From a virus, in IMG/VR virus record IMGVR_UViG_3300045738_000625, positions 1-22,748 of that record: a stretch of 22,748 nt of DNA; one strand, 5' to 3'. The translations under genes were made by a program, and so were the position numbers. This document shows, piece by piece, positions 2,017 through 18,113 of the stretch; positions within the stretch are counted from its first letter, which is position 1, and each line of letters begins with the position of its first letter. The notes below the pieces were generated by a model that worked only from the letters and a program-made list of their open reading frames with translations, had not been told where the DNA came from and ran no database searches.

Positions 2017-2303
2017 ATTATTGATTGATGGTTATACTAAAAGAGATATGTCTATAGTCTCTACAGGCCCGGATAATCCCCAGCAATAGATGTTCTACAA
2101 CAAAGATGTGTACATCATCACCATACCTCTTTAATGGTTAATGTCCAAGTGGATACAATACTGGATATAAATGTACTGCAAACATATGGTGTCTGTTCAA
2201 TACTTTATATCTGCCATCGATAGCTCGTACTGCACCCATAACAGACATAATGCGTTGTTATATAGCACATATTGTGAAATAAAGGTAATAATTAAGCGCA
2301 ATA

Positions 2304-2327
2304 GGGGCCCTCTATCACCTGGGCCCC
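2304..2327 (-). repeat. GC-rich hairpin downstream of the 2345-2656 gene
   Basis: GGGGCCC (2304-2310) and GGGCCCC (2321-2327) are perfect 7-bp inverted repeats around a 10-nt spacer, in otherwise AT-rich sequence. The hairpin starts 18 nt past the stop codon of the leftward 2345-2656 gene, where a transcript end or 3' protective stem would be expected. No U-tract follows on the minus strand, so it is not a standard intrinsic terminator. Confidence 0.45.
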
Positions 2328-2344
2328 GTCCATCACGTAATTCT

Positions 2345-11730: not shown

Positions 11731-13227
11731 ATGGCTGATGTATTTAGCTTAAGTACCTATTCAGACGTAGCAGGTTGGTCTGATGGTACTTCAAAAGACA
11801 CCGGTGACCTTAGACGAAAGTACAATTTTGGGGATAGAGTTTCTGAACTGAACATTGCTCAAGACCCTTTTTTCCGATTTGTATCTAAAGTCGCTAAACA
11901 ACCTACGGATGACCCTGAGTTCAAATTTACTGAACGAAGGGGTTCGTATCATAAAAGATATGCATACATAACTGCGCATGGCCCTGATATAAGTGTATCA
12001 GATACAGGAGATGCGACAGTAAATGCAGGCTATCTTAACCAAGGAGATACTTACTATTTAAAAATGGGGACTGATTACGAGTCTGCCGGTAATATTGGTA
12101 ATGTTTCTGGTCAATCATCTGGTGCAATTGCTGTGGGAGCTGCGAATACCGCTCCTCAGTTCTTTCTTGAAAACCAGATTATTAAAATCAATACTAGAGC
12201 TGAAGACGAAGGTACTGATTTTACAATTCCAACTGGATATGTTCTTGCAAAAGTAAAGGGTACTCCAACCGCTGTTAGCACTACTCATCAAATACTTCAA
12301 GTTGAGATTGTTAAAGGCGAAGATGCTGCTAAAGACCTTATGTGGGAAAGCGCATCCGCTGCAGTAAGCACAACTTATAATAAAACAATTGCTACGGATT
12401 TAGAACCAAAGCGTTGTTATGTTGTTGGTTCTGCTCATGGTCAGGGAACTGGGTATCCAGAGACTTGGAAAGACCAACCTTTCTCAACTGGATTTGGACT
12501 TACTCAAATTTGGAAAACTGCTATGGCAATGGATAACACTACTCGTGCTACCGTGCTAAAGTATGAACCAAATGAGTTTGCAAGAATCTGGCGTGAAAAG
12601 TTGATTGAACACAAGTGGGATATTGAGCAATCATTATTGTTTGGGGCTCAGGGAACAGTTGATAGTGTTCAGTACACTGAAGGGGCTGTTGATTTTATTA
12701 TTAGTTATGGTAATATTTTCAGCGGAACTGGAATGAGTGCAACGGCTACTACTAAATCTCAAGATGATTTTCTTGATGATATGTCGCAGTTCTTAGACCC
12801 AAGATACAACAATGCAAATGCAACTCTGTTTATGGTTCCAACCGATACTTATAATTGGTTACATAAACTAGGTGGTTATTTTGCGGCTAATGTAGCCCAA
12901 GCTGAAGGTGGACAGACCAATTTTCAAGTTGGTGGAAAAAAGAACGTCTTTGGCGTAGACATTAGACAGATTCTTACTCCTTATGGGAATATGAATGTGT
13001 CTCGCAATGTACATCTTGATGGGACTCAGATAAAGATGCTTGGTGTCAATATGAAATATTGTAAGTATAGACCTCTTGTCGGTAACGGCTTGAATCGTGA
13101 TACTGCAGTTTATGTTGGTGTTCAGACATTAGAAAACAGTGGCGTTGACCGTAGAGTTGACTTAATTCAAACAGAAGCTGGGATGGAATGGCAAATGCCA
13201 GAAGCCCATGCGGTCTGGAAAGTCTAG
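11731..13227 (+). CDS. Major capsid protein (HK97-fold type)
   Basis: A 498-residue protein starting at ATG 11731 with AAAAGGTAAACAAA before it. The N-terminal arm (DTGDLRRKYNFGDRVSELNI, then DPFFRFVSKVAKQP) followed by FKFTERRGSY resembles the opening of the SU10-like/DUF5309 capsid family, in which 'gdRv..L....tPf...' is conserved. A beta-rich part (about residues 80-200) may be an insertion on the HK97 core. The C-terminal part has the core strand-rich FMVPTDTYNWLHKLGGYF segment and ends with RRVDLIQTEAGMEWQMPEAH. Location after scaffold, length and the intergenic ribosome site fit the most expressed virion gene. Family name is inferred; capsid role is strong. Confidence 0.85.
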   Translation: MADVFSLSTYSDVAGWSDGTSKDTGDLRRKYNFGDRVSELNIAQDPFFRFVSKVAKQPTDDPEFKFTERRGSYHKRYAYITAHGPDISVSDTGDATVNAGYLNQGDTYYLKMGTDYESAGNIGNVSGQSSGAIAVGAANTAPQFFLENQIIKINTRAEDEGTDFTIPTGYVLAKVKGTPTAVSTTHQILQVEIVKGEDAAKDLMWESASAAVSTTYNKTIATDLEPKRCYVVGSAHGQGTGYPETWKDQPFSTGFGLTQIWKTAMAMDNTTRATVLKYEPNEFARIWREKLIEHKWDIEQSLLFGAQGTVDSVQYTEGAVDFIISYGNIFSGTGMSATATTKSQDDFLDDMSQFLDPRYNNANATLFMVPTDTYNWLHKLGGYFAANVAQAEGGQTNFQVGGKKNVFGVDIRQILTPYGNMNVSRNVHLDGTQIKMLGVNMKYCKYRPLVGNGLNRDTAVYVGVQTLENSGVDRRVDLIQTEAGMEWQMPEAHAVWKV

Positions 13228-13239
13228 GAGGTATGAATA

Positions 13240-13746
13240 ATGGCTAATCCTTTATACGGACAAAATAAGTTTGATAACTCAGTGGGTGAGAAATTATACT
13301 CTGAAGCAGGTACTCTTCGTGAACACGAAAATACAACAACTGCCGCAGATTTATTTTCTTACACAATTCCAGCTAATAAGTTAGAAGTAGGTGACATTGT
13401 TAGAATTAAAGTTTTCTGCACAGTTGTAGATAGCAATAGTTCAGATACTTTAACACCTATTCTTAATTTTGCGGGTTCAGCTATTGCTACTGGAGCAGCT
13501 CTTGACGTTGCAGATAGTGACGTAGTATATGCTTGGGCTGACGTTCATGTAACAAGTGCAACTGCTATGACAGCTGTTTCTGAAATCAGAACAGATGCTT
13601 TAGGAGCGACTGTTGTTATAGCGGCAACAAACTTATCATCTAAAGATATTACAGCTGATATAGCTGTAGCTCTTAATGTTGATTGGAGTGTTGCTCATGC
13701 TGATAACGAAGTGAGAATTGACTCTGCTAGTGTTGAACTGGTTTAG
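13240..13746 (+). CDS. Capsid-associated beta-rich protein, possible decoration protein
   Basis: A 168-residue protein following the capsid gene by 12 nt. The canonical site TAGGAGGT (13225-13232) includes the capsid stop codon and lies 7 nt before ATG 13240, implying high translation. The product opens with MANPLYGQNKFDN, a phrase typical of the gene after the capsid gene in aquatic phages, and is otherwise a valine/alanine/threonine-rich beta-sandwich-like protein (LEVGDIVRIKVFCTVV, then VVYAWADVHVTS). No cysteine cluster or catalytic motif. A head decoration or stabilising protein is the simplest reading from position, expression and fold type; this is not proved. Confidence 0.6.
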   Translation: MANPLYGQNKFDNSVGEKLYSEAGTLREHENTTTAADLFSYTIPANKLEVGDIVRIKVFCTVVDSNSSDTLTPILNFAGSAIATGAALDVADSDVVYAWADVHVTSATAMTAVSEIRTDALGATVVIAATNLSSKDITADIAVALNVDWSVAHADNEVRIDSASVELV

Positions 13747-13780
13747 TATAATCTGAAATTCGTGATTAATAGCACGATAT

Positions 13781-13830
13781 AAGGAATGGTGTGGGGAGGC
13801 TCGATACCTCCCTGCACCACATAAAATATG
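13781..13830 (+). promoter_or_regulatory. Hairpin-bridged ribosome-binding site for the 13828 gene
   Basis: AAGGA lies at 13781-13785. TGGTGTGGGGAGG (13787-13799) pairs with CCTCCCTGCACCA (13807-13819) over 13 positions, two of them G-U, around the loop CTCGATA. ATG is at 13828. Linearly AAGGA is 42 nt from ATG; with the hairpin folded the gap is 9 nt. The closer GGGGAGG would be hidden in the stem. An in-frame TAA at 13822-13824 rules out an upstream start. No U-run follows, so it is not a normal terminator. Phage T4 genes such as 25 are known to use folded sites of this kind. Confidence 0.6.
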
Positions 13831-16484: not shown

Positions 16485-18113
16485 ATGGCAACTTTAACAG
16501 GACAATCAATAGCGGATAGCTATGAACAATTACTTTCATTACCTAATGGAGGATTAAATGGTACTACATTAGTAGCAATCACAGATGGTGATTCAAGCAC
16601 TGCTTGTTGCTTACAATTATCAACCACAAAAGCATTGATTGAGGGGGATGGTAGTACATTATATTTCTTTGATGAAGGTGGTGAATATATAAAAGCAGAT
16701 AATGCTGGAAAATTAACAATAGCTGGTGCTGCTGAGGTTGAGGTAAATACAGCAATTTTTGATGTAAATGCAAGCGGGTCAATTAGTATTGATTCTTCAG
16801 CAGGTTCTATTGATATGAATGTTGTTGATGGGCAGACAGTTGCTATAGGTTTGAATGGTGGTGTTGAAACATTATGGAAACCACATGGAACTGCTGGAAG
16901 TGAATTATGGTCAACAATCAATACCTCAGGTACTACAGACGGTACAGATGCTGCAGGTTCAATTCTATTAAGTGCAGTTGCAGGTGGTATCGGACTAGCA
17001 TGGGCTGACGGTAAAGACTTGTGGGCAGAAGGTGGTAGATTTGTTGTCACTGCTAATGAGAATGCGGCAGACGCAATCAAACTTCATGCAGATGCTGGGT
17101 CATCTCAAACAATAACAATTGTAAATGATGCAGGAACAGGAGCTGCCGCTATTGGTCTTACCGCATCTGCTGGTGGAATTACAGTTGGATTAGGTGGAGG
17201 AGCTGGGGATGATTTTATTGTTGATACTACTACATTAGTTGTAGAAAGTGATAATAATAGAGTCGGTATTGGGACTGCTGCTCCAGCAACAACACTCGAT
17301 GTTGTGTCTGGAGTATCTGCTGCATCTCCATCAACATCTTCAGATTCTACAACAACATCGGGTACAATTCTTCGGTTAGATGGTTCTGATGGTGGTGTTT
17401 GTGATTTTGGTATACAGTCTGGTGGAGGAGGAATATGGATACAAAGCACTGATCAAACTAACCATTCATTAAGCTATCCAATCCGTTTAAATGAAAATGG
17501 TGGCAAAGTAGGTATTGGGGTTGCTGCACCAGCAGCTATTCTTCATGTTTATGCAGAAGATACAGAACCTCTTGTTATTTTTGAATCTGATGATGATGAT
17601 GTGGATAGTGGAGATATAATACTACAATTAGATTTTAGTGATGATACTAATATTCACGGAGTAACTGCTAGATTTATATCTTTCCATGATGAAGGAGGTG
17701 AGATAGGCTATATAACTACTGCTGCTGATGGTTCTGTAAATGCTATAACTACTTCTGATGTTAGATTAAAGAAAGATATTGTAGATACAAGTATTAATGG
17801 AATATCAATTATTAATGCATTAAAGATTCGTGATTTTACTTGGAATGATAAAGCTGGTAAAGCACTTGAAGGTTTAGAAGTAAAAGCCCAATATATAGCT
17901 GATGAAGTATATGAAGTTTATCCTTTAGCAACAACAGGTACACCTGGTGCTATGAAAGATATTTTAGATGATGATGGAAATAAAACAGGCGAAGAGATAG
18001 ACCGTATGGGTGTGGGAGATGCAAGATTAATTTCTGTTCTTATTAAGTCAGTACAAGAACTATCAGCTTCTAATGATGCTTTAAAAGCAAGAATAGAAGT
18101 ATTGGAGGCATAA
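16485..18113 (+). CDS. Tail fibre with C-terminal S74 self-cleaving chaperone domain
   Basis: A 542-residue protein starting at ATG 16485 behind AAGGAGATACTGAA. Residues 1-50 (SIADSYEQLLSLP, then GTTLVAITDGDSS) are a common N-terminal virion-attachment segment of aquatic phage fibres. Residues 50-410 are a glycine/alanine/serine-rich beta shaft with two GIGT-P cassettes (VGIGTAAPATTLDV from 260; VGIGVAAPAAILHV from 342). The C-terminus is an intramolecular chaperone of peptidase family S74: TSDVRLKKDI (423-432) supplies the catalytic serine S424 and lysine K429, and the end is a coiled coil (about 519-541). The chaperone would guide trimerisation and then cut itself off before S424, leaving a mature fibre of about 423 residues. 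Host-receptor binding is the expected role. Confidence 0.88.
   Translation: MATLTGQSIADSYEQLLSLPNGGLNGTTLVAITDGDSSTACCLQLSTTKALIEGDGSTLYFFDEGGEYIKADNAGKLTIAGAAEVEVNTAIFDVNASGSISIDSSAGSIDMNVVDGQTVAIGLNGGVETLWKPHGTAGSELWSTINTSGTTDGTDAAGSILLSAVAGGIGLAWADGKDLWAEGGRFVVTANENAADAIKLHADAGSSQTITIVNDAGTGAAAIGLTASAGGITVGLGGGAGDDFIVDTTTLVVESDNNRVGIGTAAPATTLDVVSGVSAASPSTSSDSTTTSGTILRLDGSDGGVCDFGIQSGGGGIWIQSTDQTNHSLSYPIRLNENGGKVGIGVAAPAAILHVYAEDTEPLVIFESDDDDVDSGDIILQLDFSDDTNIHGVTARFISFHDEGGEIGYITTAADGSVNAITTSDVRLKKDIVDTSINGISIINALKIRDFTWNDKAGKALEGLEVKAQYIADEVYEVYPLATTGTPGAMKDILDDDGNKTGEEIDRMGVGDARLISVLIKSVQELSASNDALKARIEVLEA

Follow-up and report, generated by a model that had tools for sequence, protein, structure and literature searches.

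The window, a 22,748-nt stretch of viral DNA (positions 1 to 22,748 of IMG/VR record IMGVR_UViG_3300045738_000625), carries head genes and, across an intercistronic gap, the gene for a predicted head-to-tail adaptor (Table 1). The capsid gene is classed by its sequence as SU10-type, while the 168-aa last head protein gave no family match. The first 15 residues of the latter (MANPLYGQNKFDN; window 13240-13280) recur atop otherwise dissimilar proteins at the same locus (L084-L110, L138, and L162) and resemble a swappable capsid-attachment tag. The downstream gene most likely encodes a head-to-tail adaptor of the SU10/T7 gp11 fold with a long coiled-coil extension, because weak matches to PF24175 (SU10_adaptor) coincide with fold matches to portal-tail adaptors. 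PF24175 matched the N-terminal domain in 17 of 44 homologues, with the window's own score below the curated cut-off. An AlphaFold model of the protein (pLDDT 81.5) returned phage portal-tail proteins as its top Foldseek matches (E 5e-5 to 3e-4), and it matched the adaptors of cyanophage A4, GP4, crAss001, SU10 (tail; Z 5.9 over 146 residues), and T7 gp11; Z values of 5-8 are weak alone, and the top list is dominated by adaptors. The adaptor profile gave no match to PDB chains by sequence. At 16485-18113 the window also encodes a fibre-like protein with a Peptidase_S74 (endosialidase chaperone) domain.

Table 1. Features of the junction between the head genes and the predicted adaptor gene, in window coordinates.
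Feature	Position	Strand	Remarks
Major capsid protein gene (SU10_MCP, PF17236)	11731..13227	+	Pfam E 2.4e-17
Last head gene, 168 aa, decoration-type, AGGAGG site	13240..13746	+	ORF
Previous stop, TAG	13744-13746	+	81-nt gap to ATG
Structured RNA motif (model R1), 38-40 nt: TAATCTGAAATT-CGTG-ATTAATAG-CACG-ATATAAGGAAT	13749..13787	+	CM hit 61 bits, E about 2e-12
Motif stem, 5' arm, UCGUG	13760..13764	+	Pairs with 13773-13777
Motif stem, 3' arm, CACGA	13773..13777	+	Pairs with 13760-13764
AAGGA, Shine-Dalgarno-like, 3' strand of the 38-nt motif; AANGA in relatives	13781..13785	+	
Large hairpin, 5' arm	13787..13799	+	Pairs with 13807-13819; contains GGGGAGG
Heptaloop CTCGATA	13800..13806	+	Same in 15 hairpins of differing stems, which were retrieved by searching for CTCGATA itself
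Large hairpin, 3' arm	13807..13819	+	13 bp, two G-U pairs
Linker CATAAAAT	13820..13827	+	No Shine-Dalgarno, no T tract
In-frame TAA	13822-13824	+	
Adaptor gene start, ATG	13828	+	
Probable head-to-tail adaptor gene, 574 aa	13828..15552	+	N-terminal adaptor domain and coiled-coil extension

The original prediction had described a hairpin that brings a distant ribosome-binding site to the adaptor start, and every coordinate it gave was correct on re-reading of the sequence. Between AAGGA and ATG there are 42 nt in the linear sequence and 9 nt when the 33-nt hairpin is folded, such that an intervening helix brings a distant Shine-Dalgarno within the 5-11 nt required of a split site. The assertion that no ribosome site lies between the hairpin and the ATG was likewise borne out, and its absence at 13828 is notable because an AAGGAG-type site precedes most of the window's other genes that follow a clear gap.

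The hairpin has been conserved in evolution as an RNA structure that lies, in marine phages, between head genes and adaptor gene, and it is part of a larger, undescribed RNA element. The surrounding 121-nt region folded with a z-score of -4.45 (0/200 shuffles were as good), and the 45-nt stretch holding the hairpin was, at -23.6 kcal/mol, the most stable of the whole window (runner-up, -18.2 kcal/mol), a stability reached in none of 60 dinucleotide-shuffled windows. Within the CTCGATA class, 15 related hairpins exhibited both-side changes at eight of the 13 stem pairs, with 20 double-change cells versus 6.8 in shuffles (0/500) and far lower counts in slid controls. The stem has therefore been under selection for its structure, and to that extent the original prediction is supported. 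That prediction also anticipated that aligned relatives would combine compensatory stem changes with a conserved AAGGA, and only the first part held: in the nearest relatives as judged by the upstream protein (L037-L041, 88-91% identity) the hairpin is kept and AAGGA is absent. The second strongest hairpin of the window (GGGGCCC/GGGCCCC; 2296-2338, minus strand) lies beside the stop of a minus-strand gene at 2345-2656.

AAGGA proved to be the 3' edge of a compact structured motif that had been overlooked in the sequence. Its 5-bp stem carries compensatory changes at three of five pairs (40 double-change cells versus 10.5 in shuffles) and is surrounded by numerous invariant unpaired bases; compensatory change thus exceeded the shuffled and slid controls in both the motif and the hairpin. 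The conserved flanks (AAUCUGAA, UAAUA, and AUAUAANGAU) include letters partly fixed by the search pattern, and copies found via protein homology alone agree with them. The GA of AAGGA can also pair with UC at 13752-13753; this closing pair is not proven, because it is invariant across relatives. The base preceding GA in AANGA was G in 34, A in 25, C in three, and T in two of 64 copies. A pattern search of the viral collection returned 100 stretches, about 65 of them distinct after removal of chance hits, and all of the motif copies it yielded were in marine phages, while 31 pattern matches in cellular genomes were judged to be at chance level. Scores of the R1 model were bimodal (over 50 bits or essentially nothing), and the motif is single-copy, with one strong match in each of the six large contigs that carry it. 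The window and 17 relatives had no match in Rfam 15 at the gathering score, and E-value mode yielded matches at chance level only; known Rfam RNAs were thus rejected as identities for the element, as were tRNAs, of which none was found, and a replication origin, there being no GC-skew switch at 13.8 kb. Among phage isolates, neither the junction (by DNA) nor the capsid protein found a match.

We collected 110 marine viral loci via homologues of both flanking genes. Essentially all relatives examined had a strong hairpin at the same junction, built of quite different, unrelated sequences: some have a UUCG loop, others the CTCGATA heptaloop of the window's class, and others long pyrimidine loops. 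The element is anchored on the last head gene's stop: the offset from stop to motif has a median of 0 nt (range 0-15), and the distance from motif to hairpin a median of 4 nt; the distance from hairpin to ATG is about 2-70 nt in most loci. In six loci (L112, L117, L129, L134, L165, and L193), motif and hairpin are retained before other downstream genes that have a strong Shine-Dalgarno of their own. Some loci (L052, L054-L062, and L071) have a further small gene (MAKLG... or MAKIG...), preceded by AGGAGG, between the 168-aa gene and the adaptor gene, and in those read (L052, L054, L057, L058, and L071) a structured junction lies 3' of this extra gene. The long-loop hairpins expose, on differing stems, pyrimidine tracts (GCUUCCUUUCU or CCUCCUUUUU) that resemble the 16S rRNA 3' end (L018, L054, L071, L116, L119, L121, L122, L128, L131, L140, L143, L147, L151, L156, L157, L196, and L203). 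Pairing of these tracts with the motif AAGGA was considered and rejected; AAAGA is equally common with such loops, and no covariation was visible by eye.

The absence of a proximal ribosome site at the adaptor start turned out to be an oddity of the whole family. At a criterion of -5 kcal/mol or better, a Shine-Dalgarno was present in 26% of the genes 3' of the hairpin (n=73), versus 81% in 168 other genes (gap 25 nt or more) and 88% where the gap was 25-150 nt (p 6e-16, relatedness ignored). L037 and L038 entered this comparison with slightly inaccurate start positions, which leaves the result unchanged. The unusual adaptor start is thus real, since genes following the hairpin mostly lack a Shine-Dalgarno.

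We tentatively favor a reading, which we rate as falling a little short of probable, in which hairpin and motif constitute a post-transcriptional junction element separating expression of the abundant head proteins from that of the low-copy adaptor. In phage virions generally, the adaptor is present in lower copy number. This two-part intercistronic element would end the head-gene block across a large set of SU10/phiEco32-like phages, marine and uncultured, with (i) the 38-nt motif set against the stop of the last head gene, where it may bind a factor, and (ii) the strong, sequence-variable hairpin following it. Acting in the mRNA after transcription, the hairpin would mark or protect the head-gene segment, which is heavily translated, at its 3' end, perhaps through stability or processing, and set it apart from the adaptor gene, which would be expressed less, from an A/U-rich start lacking a Shine-Dalgarno. 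The attachment of motif and hairpin to the upstream stop, at a variable distance from the start, favors an element that acts on the head-gene mRNA and on the head:adaptor ratio, as does their retention before other genes with strong sites of their own. The missing Shine-Dalgarno of the adaptor would equally fit a role in translation initiation, and the homology of the downstream gene in 74 of 83 loci, versus upstream genes that split into several clusters, suggests in part that the downstream gene has a role.

The same bases could instead form a split ribosome-binding site, in which AAGGA binds 16S rRNA and the hairpin shortens the spacing so that the adaptor is started, as in T4 genes 25 and 38, which use a split Shine-Dalgarno (PMC3014915). 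The geometry is right in the window, and there is no proximal site; we nonetheless consider this reading unlikely, as it fails in most relatives. Among 82 distinct junctions (with the hairpin assigned by minimum free energy, which is uncertain in a few loci, e.g., L117, L193, L015, and L064), 21 had a proximal Shine-Dalgarno and 61 did not. Only 12 of these 61, the window included, kept a Shine-Dalgarno and split geometry (effective spacing 7-13); in 15, AAGGA lies upstream but the effective spacing is unsuitable (below 4 or above 13); in 34, including L037-L041, the hairpin is flanked by no Shine-Dalgarno at all. The last two groups speak against the original claim that adaptor translation depends on the fold, and the claimed geometry, while present in the window and the other loci of that dozen, is not kept across the family. 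Further, in all six loci in which the hairpin stops 2 nt short of the ATG the sequence is AAAGA, which pairs weakly, rather than AAGGA, and G occupies the variable base of AANGA in about half of the copies. Conservation of AANGA needs no split site, because these bases belong to the separate structured motif. In most relatives, then, the hairpin cannot work through delivery of a remote ribosome-binding site to the start; such an arrangement may still function in the window, but what the family conserves is something else. What looks in a single genome like a convincing split ribosome-binding site can thus arise as a by-product of a different conserved structure. Literature searches for intercistronic cUUCGg hairpins, and for split sites in systems other than T4, yielded nothing usable.

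Alternatively, AANGA might serve a short leader ORF that runs through the hairpin to or over the adaptor start, such that ribosomes open the hairpin and reinitiate. The window offers a candidate, from ATG 13786 or GTG 13789 to TAA 13822, and a small ORF (about 44-51 aa in its complete copies) common to five loci (L128, L136, L143, L158, and L196) begins 7-10 nt past AA[GA]GA and runs towards or over the adaptor start. Its product, encoded just after the motif and through the hairpin, reads MR[CY]A..NGFPSFLVGECVIS..DDIITIEDITDLEEESAA. In L119, L122, and L195 the leader ORF overlaps the adaptor start (ATGA). A leader ORF was present in 35 of 67 loci versus 11.1 +/- 2.9 in shuffles, a control that breaks the hairpin and ignores relatedness. 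However, about half of the loci have none, the window's ATG directly abuts AAGGA, and in L162 and L199, both of the window's class, the ORF meets an early stop; the early stops in these two loci also led us to reject a conserved 12-residue leader peptide for this class. Coupling of this kind has good support in a single lineage but does not hold generally, and as an account of the junction we regard it as improbable. Stop-codon readthrough and ribosome hopping were considered and set aside, as the stop offset and reading frame differ between loci.

Also improbable, in our judgment, is a structured operator: a factor of the phage or its host would bind the 38-nt motif and thereby switch adaptor translation or the fate of the head mRNA, with the hairpin as a spacer or clamp. 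The invariant unpaired bases around a covarying stem and the single copy per genome are consistent with such an operator, and those of T4 gp43 and gp32 are known cases (PMC3014915); however, many relatives without the motif retain the hairpin and the start lacking a Shine-Dalgarno. That the hairpin is an intrinsic transcription terminator, as at the SU10/phiEco32 junction, is highly improbable: it occupies the same place, and many of the hairpins have UUCG loops like the SU10 terminator, but it is followed by CATAAAAT rather than by the T run that should succeed a G+C-rich hairpin, the first 8 nt past the hairpin contain a median of two T across loci, and the window's hairpin is absent from a terminator scan.

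The virion-gene operon of abundant uncultured marine phages gains a covarying, single-copy RNA element located where cultured relatives split head and adaptor expression by a terminator and promoter, making control of virion stoichiometry testable through an RNA. It is possible, if doubtful, that motif and hairpin represent a class of cis-acting RNA not described before, common among ocean phages, which recognizes a specific partner and, through translation that begins without a Shine-Dalgarno, sets how much head shell is made relative to adaptor. On this reading, the copy of the 16S rRNA 3' end (CCUCCUUU) that the hairpin loop shows in certain lineages would suggest direct dealing with the ribosome.

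Each of the known systems resembles the junction in part. As in T4 genes 25 and 38, an intercistronic hairpin lies between a Shine-Dalgarno-like sequence and a start, and shortens the spacing; unlike in those genes, a usable Shine-Dalgarno 5' of the hairpin is missing here from most relatives that have no proximal site, AAGGA belongs to a different structured motif, and the stem keeps its position relative to the upstream stop, not to the start. The translational operators of T4 gp43 and gp32 are likewise small conserved hairpins with conserved loop bases in phage intercistronic regions, but they differ in sequence and place, and the partner here is only putative. The gene order is shared with SU10 and phiEco32 (Kuravirus), which have the same head-Ig/adaptor junction and, in the SU10 terminator, a UUCG hairpin such as many of the marine relatives carry. 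There, the junction comprises a cUUCGg terminator with a T tract, a late promoter (tAATGTAt), and AAGGAGG, whereas here it has no T tract, no Shine-Dalgarno, and an additional 38-nt motif; the RNA element stands where the cultured relatives place a terminator and a new promoter.
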